Of a DNA stretch of 55,419 nucleotides, positions 17,485 through 25,445 are shown in pieces. Position numbers and translations under genes: made by a program. Location: positions 1-55,419 of the forward strand of contig NZ_VKAC01000020.1 of NCBI RefSeq assembly GCF_008041935.1, read 5' to 3'. Within the stretch, counting starts at the first letter, position 1. Every line of letters begins with the position of its first letter. The notes below the pieces were generated by a model. The model had not been told where the DNA came from, searched no databases, and saw only the letters and a program-made list of their open reading frames with translations. This DNA is from Quadrisphaera setariae (GTDB lineage Bacteria > Actinomycetota > Actinomycetes > Actinomycetales > Quadrisphaeraceae).

Positions 17485-17958
17485 GTGTTCGGCCCAGGAG
17501 ACCGTGGAGACGACGTCGCCCCCATCAGCCACCGCACCCGCACCTGGGTGAGGCAGGAGCACCTCAACGCCAACGGCACCACCTCCGCCGGCAGCATCGT
17601 GCGCTGGGTGGACGAGGAGGCGGCGATCTACGCGATCCTCCAGCTGGGCAGCCACCGCGTGGTCACCAAGCTCATCTCCTCCGCCGTCTTCGAGGCGCCG
17701 GCGGAGCTGGGCGACCTGGTGGAGCTGGGCCTGCGGGTGGTCCGCTTCGGGCGCACCTCCATCACCATGCGCGCCGAGGTCCGCAACATGATCACGCGGG
17801 AGCCGATCGTCACGATCGACGAGATCGTGTTCGTCAACCTCGGCGAGGATGGGCGCCCGGCCCCCCACGGGTACACCGAGGTCACGTACGCGCGCGACAG
17901 GGTGCCGCGGCACCGGATGCCCGCAGCCGGCTTCCCGCGGCCCGACGAGACGCCCTGA
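17485..17958 (+). CDS. Acyl-CoA thioesterase-like hotdog protein
   Basis: 157 residues with a single hotdog domain of the YciA/acyl-CoA thioesterase type: HLNANGTTSAGSIVRWVDEE (substrate pocket and catalytic Asp region), then VELGLRVVRFGRTSITMRAE. It probably hydrolyses acyl-CoA in the cytoplasm; chain-length preference cannot be told. The GTG start has TAGCGT at 17472-17477, 7 nt upstream, the same leaderless geometry as its neighbour, so it may have its own promoter despite the 33-base gap. Confidence 0.82.
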   Translation: MFGPGDRGDDVAPISHRTRTWVRQEHLNANGTTSAGSIVRWVDEEAAIYAILQLGSHRVVTKLISSAVFEAPAELGDLVELGLRVVRFGRTSITMRAEVRNMITREPIVTIDEIVFVNLGEDGRPAPHGYTEVTYARDRVPRHRMPAAGFPRPDETP

Positions 17959-18106
17959 CGGCCCGCGGTGGCCGGGGACCGTCCACCGGTGGAGCTTCAT
18001 GACAGAGACGCAAGAACTGCGGAACTTGACGCTCTGAAGGCCTGTCGGCGCCGTTCGTCTTCGTCCCATCCTCGGAGTCCCTTCCCTCCGGACCCGAGGA
18101 GACCGC

Positions 18107-18799
18107 GTGACCGTCCTCGCGCAGCGCCACAGCCCCAGCACCGAGGCCCGTCGGGCCGCCGCGCCCCGCGACCTGCCCGCCTGGGAGGCGCGCGTCCGGC
18201 GCATCCTGCGCCCGGCGGCGGTGGAGCTGGTCGACGGCTCGAGGGAGCAGCGGCAGCGGCTGGTCGCCGCGGGCGTGCGCCAGGGGACGCTCCGAGGACC
18301 CGCCGAGGCGGCGGCGGACCTGTCGTCCCTCCCGCTCGACGACCTGCTCGTCCCGGAGCTGCGCGACCTGCGCGACTTCGACGCCGCCGCCGGCCCCGGC
18401 ACCCCCGAGCCGGCGGACGAGGAGCAGCGCGAGGCTGAGGCGCTGCGGCTGCTGAGCGGCGCCGCGCGCGGACGCACCGCCTGGGTGGTGCCCTTCGCCG
18501 TCGAGCCCCTCGGCGCCGCCGGGGCGTCCGGTCCTGCGCTGGGAGTCCTCTTCACCGACTCCCGGGTGGCCGTGCTGGCCGTCCAGGACGAGGCGCGCGT
18601 GGGAGCGGAGGCCCTGGCGCGCATCGAGGCGGGGGAGCCGTGGACGGCGCTCGTGCACTCGCTGGGCGTTCCCCTGGACGACGAGCACGGCCACGCGCTG
18701 CGCGAGGACGAGGCGTGGCCGACCGGCACCCGGCTGCGGGTCCGGCTGCGCGGCGGCACGGAGGTCTGGAGCTGCGGGTCCCCCGTCGCGTGGAGCTGA
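18107..18799 (+). CDS. Orphan domain resembling the N-terminal lobe of GTP-dependent PEP carboxykinase
   Basis: 230 residues, with a GTG start and GAGGAGA just upstream. The order of motifs follows the N-terminal lobe of GTP-type PEPCK: W..R-----P--VELVDGS (25-45), GRTAWVVPFAVEPLG (122-136), LGVLFTDS (145-152), RVGAEAL (164-170), HSLGVPL (184-190), AWP (203-205) and EVWSCGS (219-225). In real PEPCK the last motif leads directly into GGNxLLGKK and the kinase-type GTP site; here the protein stops. The catalytic half is absent, and the segment that normally bears the PEP-binding Arg is replaced by an Ala/Glu/Pro-rich stretch. It overlaps ppsR by 10 bases, so it is translated with PEP-synthase genes. 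It could be a pseudoenzyme that senses PEP-node metabolites, or a decaying remnant. Gene call firm; homology by eye. Confidence 0.75.
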   Translation: MTVLAQRHSPSTEARRAAAPRDLPAWEARVRRILRPAAVELVDGSREQRQRLVAAGVRQGTLRGPAEAAADLSSLPLDDLLVPELRDLRDFDAAAGPGTPEPADEEQREAEALRLLSGAARGRTAWVVPFAVEPLGAAGASGPALGVLFTDSRVAVLAVQDEARVGAEALARIEAGEPWTALVHSLGVPLDDEHGHALREDEAWPTGTRLRVRLRGGTEVWSCGSPVAWS

Positions 18800-19677
18800 C
18801 GGGCGCGGGGCCCGTCGGACCCGCGGCACCCGGCGCGGTGCCGGTGCGGCGCGCGGCGTTCTTCGTCTCGGACAGCACCGGCATCACCGCGCAGACCCTC
18901 GGCAGCGCCCTGCTCGCCAACTTCCCCGGCGTGCTGTTCGTCCGCCGCACGCTCCCCTTCGTCGTCGGTGAGCAGGGGGCGGCGCAGGTGGTGCGGGCGC
19001 TGGAGCGGGCGCAGGCCGCGGGCCTCGCGCCGGTCGTGTTCACCACGGTCAAGGACCCGGTGGTCCGCGCCGCCCTGGCCAGCGCGCCGGGCGCGCGGAT
19101 CGACCTGCTCGGCGGGCACCTCACCGAGCTGGAGGAGGTGCTCGGCACCACGGCCTCGGAGCAGCTGGGGCAGTTCCACACCCTCGGCGACACCACGGCG
19201 TACTTCGCGCGGATGCGCGCCGTGGAGTTCGCCATCGAGCACGACGACGGGCAGAGCACCCGGGCCCTGGACCAGGCAGAAGTGATCATCATCGCCCCGA
19301 GCCGCTGCGGCAAGACGCCCACCACGATGTACCTCGCGCTGCAGCACGGGGTGCTCGTGGCCAACTACCCCCTCACCGACGAGGACTTCCCCACCGACGG
19401 GCTGCCACCGCTGGTCGCCCCGTACGCCAGCCGCTGCTTCGGGGTGACCACCACGCCGCTGCGGCTCAGCCAGGTGCGGCACGAGCGCCGCCCGCAGTCC
19501 CGCTACGCCAGCCTCGCCCAGTGCACGCTCGAGCTGCGCCGCGCCGAGCAGCTCTACCAGCGCAACCGGGTCCCCTTCGTGAACTCCTCCACCAAGAGCG
19601 TGGAGGAGATGTCCGCCGTGATCCTCCAGTCCCTCGAGCTGCGCCGCGAGCGCCTGTCCGGAGATGAGCCGTCATGA
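18790..19677 (+). CDS. ppsR: PEP synthase regulatory protein (kinase/pyrophosphorylase, DUF299)
   Basis: About 295 residues. PpsR proteins inactivate PEP synthase by ADP-dependent phosphorylation of a Thr next to the catalytic His, and reactivate it by phosphate-dependent removal. The family features are all present: [15 protein letters not shown] at the start, the P-loop-like [19 protein letters not shown], then [12 protein letters not shown] and [10 protein letters not shown]. The GTG at 18790 overlaps the preceding gene by 10 bases; GTG at 18838 or 18844 ([13 protein letters not shown]) are alternatives that give a shorter N-terminus. The stop overlaps the ppsA ATG (ATGA), so regulator and target are translationally coupled. 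Confidence 0.9.
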
Positions 19678-22121
19678 CCGACGTCCTGTGGTTCGAGCAG
19701 ATCACCATGACCGACCTGCCCCGGGTGGGCGGGAAGAACGCGTCGCTGGGGGAGATGGTCAGCCACCTGGCCTCCCTCGGCGTGAGGGTGCCCGGCGGCT
19801 TCGCCACCACCTCCGACGCCTACCGGCGCTTCCTGGCGCACGAGGGTCTGGACGCCCGCATCGCGGAGGCGGTCGGCGCGGTGGACGTCGAGGACGTCAC
19901 CCAGCTGGCGCGGGTCGGGGCGCAGGTCCGCGGCTGGGTGGAGGCGCAGCCGTTCCCCGCCGACCTGGAGGCGGAGGTCCGCAGCGCGTACGCCGTCCTC
20001 CTGGAGCGCGAGGCGGACCCGGAGTCCGTGACCTGGGCCGTGCGCTCCTCGGCCACCGCCGAGGACCTCCCCGACGCCTCCTTCGCCGGCCAGCAGGAGA
20101 CCTTCCTCAACGTGGGCGGCGTGGAGAACGTGCTCGCCGCCGTCCGCAGCGTGTACGCCTCCCTCTACAACGACCGCGCCATCGCCTACCGCGCCCACCA
20201 CGGCTTCGACCACGACGTCGCGCTGTCGGCCGGCGTGCAGCGCATGGTGCGCTCGGACGTGGGCGCCTCCGGGGTGCTCTTCACGGTGGACACCGAGTCG
20301 GGCTTCGACGAGGTGGTCTTCGTGACCAGCTCCTACGGGCTCGGGGAGGCCGTGGTGCAGGGGGCGGTGAACCCGGACGAGTTCTACGTCTCCAAGCGGG
20401 CCCTGCGCGCCGGGCGGCCCGCGGTGCTGAGCCGCTCGGTGGGGGAGAAGGCCGTCGCGATGCGGTACACCGACTCCCGCGCGGCCGGGGCCAGCACCGC
20501 CTTCGAGGACGTCCCGGCGGACCTGCGCCGCAGCTTCTCGCTGACCGATGCCGAGGTCGAGCAGCTCGCCCGCCACGCCCTCGTCATCGAGGAGCACTAC
20601 GGACGCCCGATGGACGTCGAGTGGGCCAAGGACGGCGTGGACGGCCAGCTCTACGTGCTGCAGGCGCGCCCGGAGACCGTGGTCTCGCGGGCGGACCACG
20701 GCGCCCTGCGCCGCTTCGAGCTGCAGGGCAGTGGTGACGTGCTGGTCTCCGGGCGGGCCATCGGCCAGCGCATCGGTGCCGGGGCCGTGCGGGTGCTGCG
20801 CAGCGTGGAGCAGATGCACGAGTTCCGCGCGGGCGACGTGCTCGTGGCCGACATGACCGACCCCGACTGGGAGCCGGTCATGAAGCGCGCCAGCGCCATC
20901 GTCACCGACCGCGGCGGGCGCACCTGCCACGCCGCGATCATCGCCCGCGAGCTGGGCATCCCCGCCGTCGTCGGCACCGGAGACGCCACCCGCCTGCTCG
21001 CCGAGGGCGCCGAGGTGACCGTCTCGTGCGCCGAGGGCGACACCGGGCTGGTCTACGACGGGCTGCTGCCCTTCGAGGAGGTCGTCACCCACCTCGACGC
21101 CATGCCCGAGCCTCCGGTCAAGGTCATGATGAACGTCGGGACGCCGGACCAGGCCTTCGCCTTCTCCCGGCTGCCGCACGCCGGCGTGGGCCTGGCGCGC
21201 TTGGAGTTCATCATCAACCGGCAGATCGGGGTGCACCCCCGCGCGCTGCTCGAGGTGGACTCCCTGCCCGACGACGTCGCTGCGCAGGTGGAGCGGCGCA
21301 CCGCCGCGCACCCCTCCCCGCGGGAGTACTTCGTGCGCCGGGTGGCCGAGGGGGTCTCCACCATCGCGGCGGCGTTCTGGCCCGAGCCCGTCATCGTGCG
21401 CCTGAGCGACTTCAAGTCCAACGAGTACGCCAACCTGCTGGCCGGAGACCTCTACGAGCCGCACGAGGAGAACCCGATGCTGGGCTACCGCGGTGCCTCG
21501 CGGTACCTCTCGCCGGACTTCGCCGCGTGCTTCCAGATGGAGTGCGAGGCGCTGCTCCACGTGCGCGACGCCATGGGCTTCACCAACGTCAAGGTGATGG
21601 TGCCGTTCGTGCGCACCCTCGCCGAGGGCGAGGCCGTGGTCGAGCTGCTCGCGCAGAACGGCCTCGTGCGCGGCGAGAACGGCCTCGAGGTGGTGATGAT
21701 GTGCGAGCTGCCCTCCAACGCGCTGCTGGCGGAGCAGTTCCTCGAGCACTTCGACGGCTTCTCCATCGGCTCCAACGACATGACGCAGCTGACCCTCGGG
21801 CTCGACAGGGACAGCGCCCTGGTGGCCGCGGGCTTCGACGAGCGCGACCCCGCCGTCCTCACGCTGCTGTCGATGGCGATCAGCGCCGCGCGCGAGCGCG
21901 GCAAGTACGTCGGCATCTGCGGGCAGGGCCCGAGCGACCACCCCGACCTCGCGGAGTGGCTGGTCGACCAGGGGATCTCGTCGGTCTCCCTCAACCCCGA
22001 CACGGTGGTGGCCACCTGGCTGCGCCTCGCCGAGCGCGCCGCCACCGCGCCTGCGGCGGCGGGGGACGATGACGCGCCCCTGCTCCTCGACCTGGCGCCG
22101 GAGAGCGCCGGAGTCCGCTGA
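19674..22121 (+). CDS. ppsA: Phosphoenolpyruvate synthase
   Basis: 815 residues; makes PEP from pyruvate with ATP giving AMP and phosphate. The N-terminal ATP-grasp part begins [23 protein letters not shown] and has [20 protein letters not shown]. The central swivelling domain carries [24 protein letters not shown] with catalytic His419; the preceding Thr is the expected PpsR target. The C-terminal barrel ends with [18 protein letters not shown] and [17 protein letters not shown], which contains the active-site Cys. Length is normal. It is the last gene of the set with ppsR and ends at a strong hairpin. Confidence 0.96.
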
Positions 22122-22162: not shown

Positions 22163-23212
22163 TCAGCGGGTGGCGGCGGCCACGGCGTCGAGGGCGCGCA
22201 GCGTGGCCAGCGACTGCGCGAGGGGTCGCAGCGGGGTCTCGGTGAGGCCGGCGGCCACGCAGCGCGCCACCTCGGCCGCCTGCCAGAACAGACCGGCGTG
22301 CCCGGTCTCGGGCTCGCGGCGAACGACCGGGTCGGGACGCGCTCCCGACCCGCCCGCAGGGACGACCACGACGTCGCCGGAGGCGTAGAAAGGACCGGGC
22401 AGCCGCAGCGTGGCGCGGTCGCCGACCACGTGGGCGGTGGTCGGGGTGTCGCCCAGGAGCGTCGTGTGCACCGCGGACAGCGCCGGACCACCCCCCTCGC
22501 GGCCGGTGTGCTGCAGCACCGCGCCGACCTGCCCCAGCACGCCGCTGGGGTGGGGGACGCCGACGGCGGAGGCCGCGGTCACCTCGCCGAGCACCCAGGT
22601 GGCCAGCGCCAGGGGGTAGGTGGCGAGGTCGAGCAGGGGCCCGCCGTGCTGCGCCGGGTCGAAGACGCGGTGGTGCGGGTCGAAGTGCTCCCCGAGGTCG
22701 GCGTCGACGGCGGAGACGCGCCCGAGGACGCCGTCGTCCAGGAGCTGGCGGACCACGTCCCAGCGCGGCAGGTACGCGCTCCAGAAGGCTTCGGCGCAGA
22801 ACACGCCCGCGGCGCGGGCAGCGTCGGCGACCCGCTGGCCCTGCGCGGCGTCGAGGGCGAGCGGCTTCTCCACCAGCACGGGCTTGCCCGCCTCGATCGC
22901 GGCCAGCGCGCCGGCGAGGTGGTCGGCGTGGCCGGTGGCCACGTAGACGACGTCGACGCCGGGGTCGGCCACCAGATCCGCCCAGCTGCCGTGCGCCCTC
23001 TCGACACCCAGGCGCTGCGCGGCGTCGCGGGCGCGGTCGCCGCTGCGGGACCCGAGGGCGCTGACGTCCTGGCGGGTGCCGGCGCGCAGAGCCCCGACGA
23101 ACCGCTCCACGATCCAGCCGGTACCCATGACGCCCCAGCGCAGCACCGGCGCGTCCCTCGGGTCGGGGGTGCGGGGCTCGGGCAGCGCGCTGGGCAGCGC
23201 CGGCCGGCTCAC
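22163..23212 (-). CDS. Gfo/Idh/MocA-family NAD(P)-dependent oxidoreductase
   Basis: 349 residues. The N-terminal Rossmann fold has LRWGVMGTGWIVERFV, then YVATGHADHLAGALAAIEAGKPVLVEKPLAL with the catalytic Lys of the EKP motif, and a C-terminal substrate domain (HFDPHHRVFDPAQHGGPLLDLATYPL). The pattern resembles dihydrodiol/D-xylose dehydrogenase-like members that oxidise sugar hydroxyls or aldehydes. It is last in a three-gene coupled operon of the same superfamily: its GTG overlaps the upstream TGA. Substrate unknown. Confidence 0.88.
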   Translation of the reverse strand: MSRPALPSALPEPRTPDPRDAPVLRWGVMGTGWIVERFVGALRAGTRQDVSALGSRSGDRARDAAQRLGVERAHGSWADLVADPGVDVVYVATGHADHLAGALAAIEAGKPVLVEKPLALDAAQGQRVADAARAAGVFCAEAFWSAYLPRWDVVRQLLDDGVLGRVSAVDADLGEHFDPHHRVFDPAQHGGPLLDLATYPLALATWVLGEVTAASAVGVPHPSGVLGQVGAVLQHTGREGGGPALSAVHTTLLGDTPTTAHVVGDRATLRLPGPFYASGDVVVVPAGGSGARPDPVVRREPETGHAGLFWQAAEVARCVAAGLTETPLRPLAQSLATLRALDAVAAATR

Positions 23213-24243
23213 GACGGCACCTCCACGGAGGTCCACGGGCCCGCACCGTCGACGGCGGCGCGCATCGAGCGGACCGCGGCGTCGCACACGGCCGCTGCCA
23301 CGAGACCGTCCCGCGCGGTGGCGAGGGCGGGTGCCTCCAGGCCGCGCACGCCGTCCACCCACGCCTGCAGCTCGCGCCGGTAGGCCTCGGCGAACCGCGG
23401 CCGCCAGTCGGCCGCGAAGGCGCTGGTCCGGGACAGGTCCGAGGTGCGCGTGGTCAGCGAGGTGGTCTGGACGGCCTCCGACAGCGCCAGCGCACCGCTC
23501 CGGCCGACCACCTCGCAGCGGATGTCGTAGCCGTAGCGGGCGTTCAGCAGCACCTCGACGGTCGTGAGCACGCCGTCGGCCGTGCGCAGGAGCAGCAGCT
23601 GGGGGTCCTGCAGGTCGCTGGTCCCCGTCGTCCGCCCGGGCGCCTGCCAGCACACCGCGGTGACGGGCGAGCCGAGCAGCCACGGCACGGAGTCGGCCTC
23701 GTGGACGAAGGAGCCGGTGATGAGGCTCTCGGACGTGGCTCCCGGGCCGGCGGTCACCCCGCGGCTCGTGCCGTGGACGAGCAGGGGCTCTCCGACGGCG
23801 CCGCGGTGCAGCGCCTCGCGCAGCTCGACGTGCGCCGGGTCGACCCGGCGCATGAACCCCAGGGCCACCAGGTGGGCGGTGCCGTCAGCGTCCAGGGCGC
23901 GCACCACGCGGGCCGCCTCCTCCAGCGACGGCGCCAGCGGCTTCTCGCACAGCACCGGCTTGCCCGCCGCTGCCGCGGCGAGCACCAGCGCGGCGTGGGT
24001 GGCGTCGGCCGAGGCGACGACCACGGCGTCGACGTCGTCCTCGGCGACGAGCGCCGGACCGTCCGGGCTGGTCAGCGCCCCCAGCTCCTCGGCGAGCGCG
24101 GTCGCCCGGCCGGGGTCGAGGTCGGTGAGGCGGGTCAGCTCCGCGCCCGACACCTGGCGCGCCAGCAGGCGTGCGTGGTCGGTGCCCATGACCCCGCAGC
24201 CGACCACCCCGACCCGCAGGGCCGACCTCGTGGTGGCGCTCAC
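23209..24243 (-). CDS. Gfo/Idh/MocA-family oxidoreductase
   Basis: 344 residues. Dinucleotide site LRVGVVGCGVMGTDHARLL, catalytic motif GKPVLCEKPLAPS and the segment GFMRRVDPAHVELREALHRGAVGEP, which resembles myo-inositol 2-dehydrogenases. The C-terminal half carries GSFVHEADSVPWLLG with the Asp/His pair expected near the substrate. Its GTG start overlaps the TGA of the upstream gene (GTGA) and its own TGA overlaps the next start, so the three proteins are likely made in balanced amounts and may act in one pathway. Confidence 0.88.
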   Translation of the reverse strand: MSATTRSALRVGVVGCGVMGTDHARLLARQVSGAELTRLTDLDPGRATALAEELGALTSPDGPALVAEDDVDAVVVASADATHAALVLAAAAAGKPVLCEKPLAPSLEEAARVVRALDADGTAHLVALGFMRRVDPAHVELREALHRGAVGEPLLVHGTSRGVTAGPGATSESLITGSFVHEADSVPWLLGSPVTAVCWQAPGRTTGTSDLQDPQLLLLRTADGVLTTVEVLLNARYGYDIRCEVVGRSGALALSEAVQTTSLTTRTSDLSRTSAFAADWRPRFAEAYRRELQAWVDGVRGLEAPALATARDGLVAAAVCDAAVRSMRAAVDGAGPWTSVEVPS

Positions 24244-25445
24244 GCGACCGGCTCCCAGCTGCCGCTGGTCACCGAGCGGCCCATGGCGTCGAGCGCCCGG
24301 GCGCTGGCGACGGCGTCGTCGAGGGTGGCGGGGCCCTGCTCGGGGGGTGACGACGGATCGGCGGCGGTGCGCAGGAAGCGGGCGGCCTCCACCACCTTGA
24401 GGTCGTCGTAGCCCATGGCGATGGCGGCACCGGGCTGGAAGGCCGCGTAGTCGCCGTGACCGGGACCGACGAAGAGCGTCTGCGTGGGCGCGTCCTGGTA
24501 GAGCACCGACCCGTCGCCGCCGCGGCCCCCGCTGACGCTCAGCTCGCCCGTGCGGCGGAAGTCCCACCGCAGCACGCCGCGGGTGCCCGCCACCTCGAAG
24601 CCGTAGGTGTTCTGCTCGCCCACCGCCACGCGGCTGGCCTCCAGGACGCCGCGCGCTCCGGAGGCGAAGCGCAGCAGCGCCGTCACGGCGTCCTCGTTCT
24701 CGACGTCGCCCATCGCGGTGCCCTCGCCCAGCGCGACGCGCTGGTGGCCGGCGGTCGCCCCGGACGGCACGGCCCGCTGCGGGATGAAGACGGCGGTGTC
24801 GGCGACCACGGCGCTGATGTCGCCCACCAGGTACCGGGCCAGGTCGACCCCGTGGGAGGCCAGGTCCCCCAGCACCCCGGCCCCGCCGCGCTCGCGGGAG
24901 TACCGCCAGCTGAGGGCTCCTGTCGGGTCGGCGGCGTAGTCGGACAGCAGCCGCACCCTCACGCTCTCGACGTCACCGACCTCGCCGGCGGCGACCCTCC
25001 GGCGCGCCTCCTGCACGGCGGGCGCCCAGCGGTAGTTGAAGCCGACGGCCGCGCGCACGCCGGCGGAGGCCACGGCGTCGCGCACCGCAGCGGCGTCGTC
25101 GGCGGACAGGCCCACCGGCTTCTCGATCCAGAGGTGCTTCCCGGCCTCCGCCACCGCCGTGCCGATCTCGCGGTGCAGGAAGTTCGGCGCGGTGACGCTG
25201 ACCGCCTCCACGCGCGGGTCGGTGAGCACCTCGCGCCAGTCGCGGACCGCCGAGGCGAAGCCGTACTGGGCCGCGGCGGCCTCGGCGCGCCCGGGGACCT
25301 CATCGGCCACGGCCACCAGCTCGGGCCGCACGCCCAGCTCGGGGAAGTGGTGGGGCACCCTCGCGTAGGACTGGGCGTGCACCCGCCCCATCCACCCGAA
25401 GCCCACCACGGCCACACCCAGCGGGCGCTGCGCTGCGCTCGTCAC
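24240..25445 (-). CDS. Gfo/Idh/MocA-family oxidoreductase, long (levoglucosan-dehydrogenase-like) form
   Basis: 401 residues, first gene of the operon. Dinucleotide site GVAVVGFGWMGRVHAQSYAR, catalytic GKHLWIEKPVGLS, GFNYRWAPAV and LGDLASHGVDLARYLVGDIS. The extra C-terminal features (FEVAGTRGVLRWDFRR, PGAAIAMGYDDLKVVEAARFL) recall levoglucosan dehydrogenases and other enzymes that oxidise C3 of anhydrosugars or glycosides; this is from memory of the family. GTG start with GAGGAG upstream. A perfect 18-bp palindrome at 25475-25492 lies 30 bases before it and is probably the operator of the LacI regulator encoded just upstream. Confidence 0.87.
   Translation of the reverse strand: MTSAAQRPLGVAVVGFGWMGRVHAQSYARVPHHFPELGVRPELVAVADEVPGRAEAAAAQYGFASAVRDWREVLTDPRVEAVSVTAPNFLHREIGTAVAEAGKHLWIEKPVGLSADDAAAVRDAVASAGVRAAVGFNYRWAPAVQEARRRVAAGEVGDVESVRVRLLSDYAADPTGALSWRYSRERGGAGVLGDLASHGVDLARYLVGDISAVVADTAVFIPQRAVPSGATAGHQRVALGEGTAMGDVENEDAVTALLRFASGARGVLEASRVAVGEQNTYGFEVAGTRGVLRWDFRRTGELSVSGGRGGDGSVLYQDAPTQTLFVGPGHGDYAAFQPGAAIAMGYDDLKVVEAARFLRTAADPSSPPEQGPATLDDAVASARALDAMGRSVTSGSWEPVA

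Follow-up and report, generated by a model that had tools for sequence, protein, structure and literature searches.

In a 55,419-nucleotide stretch of DNA from the actinobacterium Quadrisphaera setariae (NZ_VKAC01000020.1; hereinafter the window), we identified a 230-residue open reading frame (ORF; 18107..18799, + strand) coding for a stand-alone N-terminal lobe of phosphoenolpyruvate (PEP) carboxykinase (PEPCK), a predicted pseudoenzyme whose gene we named pckN. Comparative sequence analysis showed it to be a copy of the genus's own full-length PEPCK gene (pck) that spans about one third of the enzyme, from its N-terminal end, and carries the pck control element with it; this last point, the strongest finding, is not visible from the window alone. 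Since pckN has lost the parts that perform the chemistry and yet is kept intact by selection, it probably has a regulatory role.

The frame opens with a GTG at 18107, preceded by the ribosome-binding site GAGGAG (18096..18101, + strand), which is invariant at all six loci where the gene occurs. The first-pass annotation, made from the letters of the window, had reported the ordered motifs of a PEPCK N-lobe in the 230-residue product; all of these are present, and a Pfam profile search recovered the PEPCK N-terminal domain above its cut-off (PF17297 PEPCK_N, 62.1 bits against a cut-off of 23.8, e-value 7.6 × 10–17), with the best stretch placing residues 103–225 on positions 81–195 of the 218-position profile. 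The NCBIfam GTP-PEPCK model spans residues 10–225 with a score of 69.1 bits, far under its equivalog cut-off of 504, and all 23 PDB sequences matched by the pckN protein are PEPCKs. Its predicted fold likewise matches the PEPCK N-domain. The C-terminal P-loop domain (PF00821) is absent from the ORF and present in the full-length PEPCK of the same genome, whose frame has 636 residues against the 230 of pckN. A split pck gene was ruled out: with the full-length PEPCK as query (e-value threshold 0.001), the genome yielded nothing beyond full-length pck and the lone lobe, and hence no separate C-lobe. A frameshifted remainder of PEPCK 3′ of pckN was also rejected, as the next DNA, judged from the reading frames only, encodes ppsR.

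Among six Quadrisphaera genomes (G000–G005, where G000 holds the window and G005 is a metagenome-assembled genome [MAG]), the lone lobe occurs in five, namely G000, G002, G003, G004, and G005, the last with two copies. The named matches, Quadrisphaera granulorum DSM 44889 (G002), Quadrisphaera sp. INWT6 (G003), and an Actinomycetales MAG (G005), came from a scan with two short peptide patterns that gave four loci; a contig scan with the pckN protein as single query gave no match. No lone lobe was found in G001, which keeps a full pck. The two G005 lobes, on separate contigs (L047 and L048), are 80% identical, and only one is accompanied by a second thioesterase gene; they may come from two strains binned together or reflect a genuine duplication. 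A survey of 396 genomes of the order gave matches in 285, and all of the outside-genus matches listed (the best ones, down to 83.6 bits) lie in frames of at least 609 residues, i.e., full-length PEPCKs. The only lone lobe retrieved from 396 genomes of the phylum, at an e-value of 10–26 that reveals close relatives of the lobe and with the genus represented by G000 alone, was that of G000 itself. PEPCK genes were also seen on seven IMG/VR contigs (L092–L098), which are perhaps host DNA. In a tree of 35 N-lobes, with a very long orphan branch, four orphans of deviant composition, and a midpoint root, the six orphan lobes form one group (support 100/100), and a branch of the same support parts them, together with the six Quadrisphaera PEPCKs, from the 23 other PEPCKs. 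The six orphans and the six Quadrisphaera PEPCKs all carry a one-residue insertion in the DExGxxxRxD loop that precedes the DVAWP motif; each of the 23 other PEPCKs lacks it. The shared insertion and this branch therefore identify pckN, at the level of sequence, as a copy of the pck of its own genus.

The copied piece includes a 32-bp operator-like element (17999..18030, + strand) in the gap between pckN and the thioesterase gene 5′ of it. Most of this intergenic DNA has diverged across the six lobe loci, whereas the element is retained, with 13 of its 32 columns invariant against 13 of 108 in the remainder of the gap (Fisher p=7 × 10–4). Its consensus is TTGAC-N5-SKCAAGAA-N6-TTCTTSAC, from which the window copy departs at 3 of 19 positions. 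A first pattern, drawn from the lobe-upstream DNA, was searched against the six genomes; its five matches at lobe loci followed by construction, but a match ahead of the full-length pck of G003 did not, and three further sites were recovered (G002:C29, G000:C14, and G001:C123) against none for the backward control. The same element stands ahead of all six pck genes of the genus, ungapped and with identical half-site spacing, and starts 112–124 bp 5′ of pck and 105–108 bp 5′ of the lobe. All 12 of these upstream regions contain it with 0–3 mismatches in 19, and in each none of 1000 shuffles was as good. The pattern TTGACN5CGCAAGAA with at most one mismatch, written after seeing pck, has nine matches across the six genomes, six before pck and three before the lobe, against two for its backward control. 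Among 23 pck genes from other genera of the order, the full pattern scored better than each of 60 shuffles ahead of 10 and failed to do so ahead of the other 13 (one with only 102 bases available); because weaker forms precede these 10, it has the look of an ancient pck element. Among the open-licence papers listed in a search for a known actinobacterial pck operator, none offered a fitting site. At another site (G002:C29:38729-38749), a near-perfect palindrome, TTCGTGAC-N5-GTCACGAA, resembles the element.

The loss of catalytic parts is evident when the 74 columns nearly invariant in PEPCK are checked in the six orphan lobes. One of the 18 such columns in the R-loop-to-AGPTNNW block is retained in all six, and none of the eight in the GYGGNALL tail, against 24 of the remaining 48 (Fisher p=7 × 10–4 for the R-loop block versus the rest). 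Counted by cells, the R-loop motif VARVExRT agrees with the PEPCK majority in 8 of 48 and GYGGN in 0 of 30, both departing from the PEPCK pattern. The R-loop of PEPCK is reported to coordinate substrate (PMC12529880), and the metal and nucleotide ligands described for the Mycobacterium tuberculosis enzyme are residues 249 and up (PMC4370629), a region that falls in the part missing from pckN. The earlier designation of the protein as a catalytically dead PEPCK lobe is borne out by the replaced R-loop and YGGN and the missing nucleotide-binding lobe, as read from the alignment. The columns that the orphans retain (DGS, GRTxxVPF, GVxxTDS, HSxxxPL, DxxWP, and VWxxGS) look like the core of the fold; at 11 near-invariant PEPCK positions they carry another residue, identical across all six. 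Compared with GTP-dependent PEPCK (PF17297 plus PF00821), from whose Quadrisphaera form it derives, pckN shares the N-lobe sequence, the predicted fold, and the upstream control element, and differs in lacking the C-lobe with its P-loop, metal, and nucleotide sites and in having the R-loop and YGGN replaced.

The six orphan proteins are 51–94% identical, and the differences between the G000 and G004 lobes are distributed over codon positions 1, 2, and 3 as 27, 26, and 69. Ratios of nonsynonymous to synonymous substitution rates (dN/dS) range from 0.31 to 0.58 across all 15 lobe pairs (ppsR, 0.13–0.15; ppsA, 0.11–0.16). Five pairs were compared with neutral simulations having the same number of changes (two GC settings; median dN/dS 1.16–1.55). 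None of 200 simulations was as low as the observed 0.311 (G000–G004) and 0.368 (G003–G005b), at both GC settings, nor as low as 0.536 (G000–G002) and 0.530 (G000–G003), and 4 of 200 were as low as the 0.537 of the closest pair (G003–G005a). The frame stayed open in 79% of the simulations, so that the lack of stops alone is weak evidence. Judged from these substitution patterns, the pckN protein is under purifying selection, a constraint that is real but loose.

The gene 5′ of pckN codes for a 4HBT (YciA-like) acyl-CoA thioesterase (17485..17958, + strand; PF03061, e-value 3.7 × 10–12), which stands just 5′ of the lobe at all six loci and is the sole gene adjoining it in all; additional 4HBT thioesterase copies (L058–L062) occur in G000, G001 (two), G003, and G005, those of G003 and G005 being the ones immediately 3′ of the lobe. 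Downstream in the window, on the same strand, lie ppsR, coding for the kinase-pyrophosphorylase of PEP synthase (18790..19677, starting at GTG 18790 or GTG 18844; PF03618, e-value 1.2 × 10–66), and ppsA, coding for PEP synthase (19674..22121; PRK06464, 1202.6 bits). The first-pass annotation had named both correctly, and the 4-base overlap that it gave for them is correct too (19674–19677); the 10 bases by which it had the lobe overlap ppsR apply if ppsR starts at GTG 18790 and not if it starts at GTG 18844. In all three genomes with ppsR a GTG at this overlap is in frame with ppsR, the conserved protein begins at about GTG 18844, and the outer GTG gives an overlap and the inner one a distance of 20–50 bp.

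These three genomes, with ppsR-ppsA downstream of the lobe on the same strand, are G000, G002, and G004. At an e-value of 10–10, ppsR was not found in G001, G003, and G005 (G003 and G005 being 91% and 94% complete), and ppsA gave partial relatives only. Other genes stand directly 3′ of the lobe in G003 and G005, including a second thioesterase in G003 and behind one G005 copy, and the lobe is still constrained there (the G003–G005b pair above); G005b has no same-strand gene after it on its 3.65-kb contig. In G001 about 115 bp separate the thioesterase gene from the oxidoreductase gene that in the window lies behind ppsA, and the lobe, ppsR, and ppsA are therefore jointly absent from this site. 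In G002 (L049) the thioesterase-lobe-ppsR-ppsA block is intact between other flanks, unlike the arrangement in G001, G003, and G004; these flanking genes are of chemotaxis type, judged by reading their translations. Outside the genus, the gene calls of 9 of 11 ppsR loci had no lobe or thioesterase in their first residues (those of L036 are poor and miss even ppsR), and nine other-genus genomes with ppsR had no lone lobe among the matches listed. The association of lobe and ppsR-ppsA, central to the earlier interpretation, is thus present in three of five lobe genomes, while strict co-occurrence fails. Because lobe and ppsR loci stand apart in this way, the lobe either predates its link to ppsR-ppsA or does not depend on it; where present, the link is real.

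A divergent regulator of the XRE type lies on the far side of the element from pck at all four genus loci read. The one beside the full-length pck of G000 (L002 2292-3620, + strand) has a PrpR-like central part, with residues 121–409 matching M. tuberculosis PrpR structures (e-value 4.4 × 10–6), and scores 57.8 bits against RamB, below the cut-off of 700. PrpR is reported to bind CoA and short acyl-CoAs (PMC6765138), and its reported site is the palindrome TTTGCAAA (PMC3420887). This PrpR/RamB-like protein is a candidate pck regulator in the genus, perhaps more widely in the order.

We propose that, in an ancestor common to the Quadrisphaera sampled here, a piece of pck comprising its control region and its first ~690 bases was copied behind the thioesterase gene, where it would have become the separate gene pckN. 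It would be switched on together with pck, perhaps via the divergent PrpR/RamB-like regulator, and PckN would adopt the PEPCK N-lobe fold, be inactive, and act by protein contact. PEPCK would be its likeliest target, e.g., at the interface of the N- and C-lobes, where it could tune or stabilize the enzyme, because the lobe keeps part of the surface used when the two PEPCK lobes close; GTP-PEPCKs are reported to be monomers for the most part and not to be controlled allosterically (PMC8100219), an opening that a partner protein could fill. In three species the pckN promoter and close spacing probably put ppsR-ppsA under pck-type control, and both routes to PEP would then be raised together. We favor this explanation in its entirety (a pck-derived, co-expressed, inactive PckN acting by contact, most likely on PEPCK) tentatively, placing it somewhat short of an even chance. 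The bolder claim that a dead lone N-lobe, made with PEPCK from a copied operator, regulates PEPCK in trans, and in some species ties it to PEP synthase as the first gene of the ppsR-ppsA operon, is doubtful.

Several observations weigh against the proposal. pckN is dispensable, since G001 keeps pck without it. In the three pairs having all of these genes, the dN/dS of the lobe is 2–5 times, and its dN 3–8 times, those of ppsR and ppsA. AlphaFold gave no usable fold from the orphan sequences alone (predicted local distance difference test score, pLDDT, 41.7), and the usable model of pckN leaned on PEPCK relatives. The 32-bp element had been picked out of the alignment by eye, with its conserved columns counted afterward, and it differs from the PrpR palindrome TTTGCAAA; the connection between regulator and element, drawn from position only, is a lead.

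Among the other explanations, a new job taken up after duplication (e.g., binding of another metabolite or of the neighboring thioesterase), with expression still shared with pck, is unlikely. The long orphan branch, the shared replacements at 11 near-invariant PEPCK positions, and the thioesterase adjoining the lobe at 6/6 loci speak for it, whereas some common new residues are expected anyway among mutually similar orphans and the adjacency may just mark the insertion site. The thioesterase as partner was rejected as a candidate in its own right, given that the lobe comes with a control element of its own and that G001 has the orthologous thioesterase but no lobe beside it, and is kept within this alternative. 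One could also suppose that selection keeps the copied pck promoter for the genes downstream, the ORF being a leader that gives translational coupling; with the element present at all six lobe loci, ppsR-ppsA close behind in three and a second thioesterase in two, and the in-frame GTG at the overlap in 3/3 ppsR genomes, this has some appeal, yet it is weakened by the constraint on the amino-acid sequence, even without ppsR-ppsA behind (G003–G005b), and by the G005b lobe with no same-strand gene after it, and we consider it decidedly unlikely.

The roles first suggested for the lobe fare less well. A main role as partner of PpsR or PpsA is improbable: the lobe lies directly 5′ of ppsR-ppsA in all three genus genomes that have them, lobe, ppsR, and ppsA are jointly missing from the syntenic G001 site, and the four-gene block is intact in G002 despite different flanks, but G003 and G005 keep the lobe under selection where no ppsR or complete ppsA was found, which argues against either as its defining partner. 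Sensing of a PEP-node metabolite is suggested by the predicted fold, that of the lobe bearing the substrate loop; it is nevertheless very improbable, since each of the six orphans has other residues in place of the R-loop and YGGN, which makes sensing of PEP or oxaloacetate via the PEPCK site unlikely, and the metal and nucleotide ligand residues reported for the M. tuberculosis enzyme (PMC4370629) belong to the missing part. A functionless gene remnant, formerly offered as the alternative, would account for the absence from G001, the constraint looser than on the neighbors, and the open frame, which neutral simulations mostly keep as well; with dN/dS below neutral expectation in four of the five simulated pairs (0/200 each; 4/200 for the closest), and with the control element and ribosome-binding site retained, it is extremely improbable. 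Random truncations with decayed frames do not describe the homologues either, which are constrained and in three genomes share the strand of ppsR-ppsA.

Domain-only paralogues and dead regulatory enzyme domains are known for other proteins. Helical carotenoid proteins, described as homologues of the OCP N-domain (PMC12059629), resemble pckN in that a domain occurs on its own as a single-domain protein as well; unlike pckN, they have another fold and role, with a lone domain that functions as an active quencher. The PTA domain of malic enzyme, reported to have no PTA activity and a regulatory role (PMC8100219), parallels the proposed PckN as an inactive, regulatory enzyme domain at the same metabolic node, but it is fused in cis, whereas PckN is a separate protein with a putative partner. 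Control of PEP synthase by PpsR (DUF299) is reported as shown in Escherichia coli (PMC8100219); this known pair adjoins pckN on the same strand in three species and does not include the lobe. In open-licence full texts we found no report of a standalone PEPCK N-domain or a PEPCK pseudoenzyme, and, if the proposal is true, an in-trans protein partner of GTP-PEPCK would be new. The case is unusually clean, with the copied element, insertion site, lost catalytic parts, and selection legible from six genomes; it allows direct tests of how a fragment of an enzyme can acquire a regulatory role at the PEP-pyruvate-oxaloacetate node, and it suggests a pck regulon of small size for which a regulator can be proposed.

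Elsewhere in the window, the segment 16678-17451 (+ strand) codes for a pterin-4a-carbinolamine dehydratase domain fused to a glyoxalase-like domain, and 22163-25445 (− strand) for three consecutive GFO/IDH/MocA-like oxidoreductases, the first checked by Pfam, together with a LacI-like regulator; by reading of translations, this trio and regulator also occur in G001 and G003.

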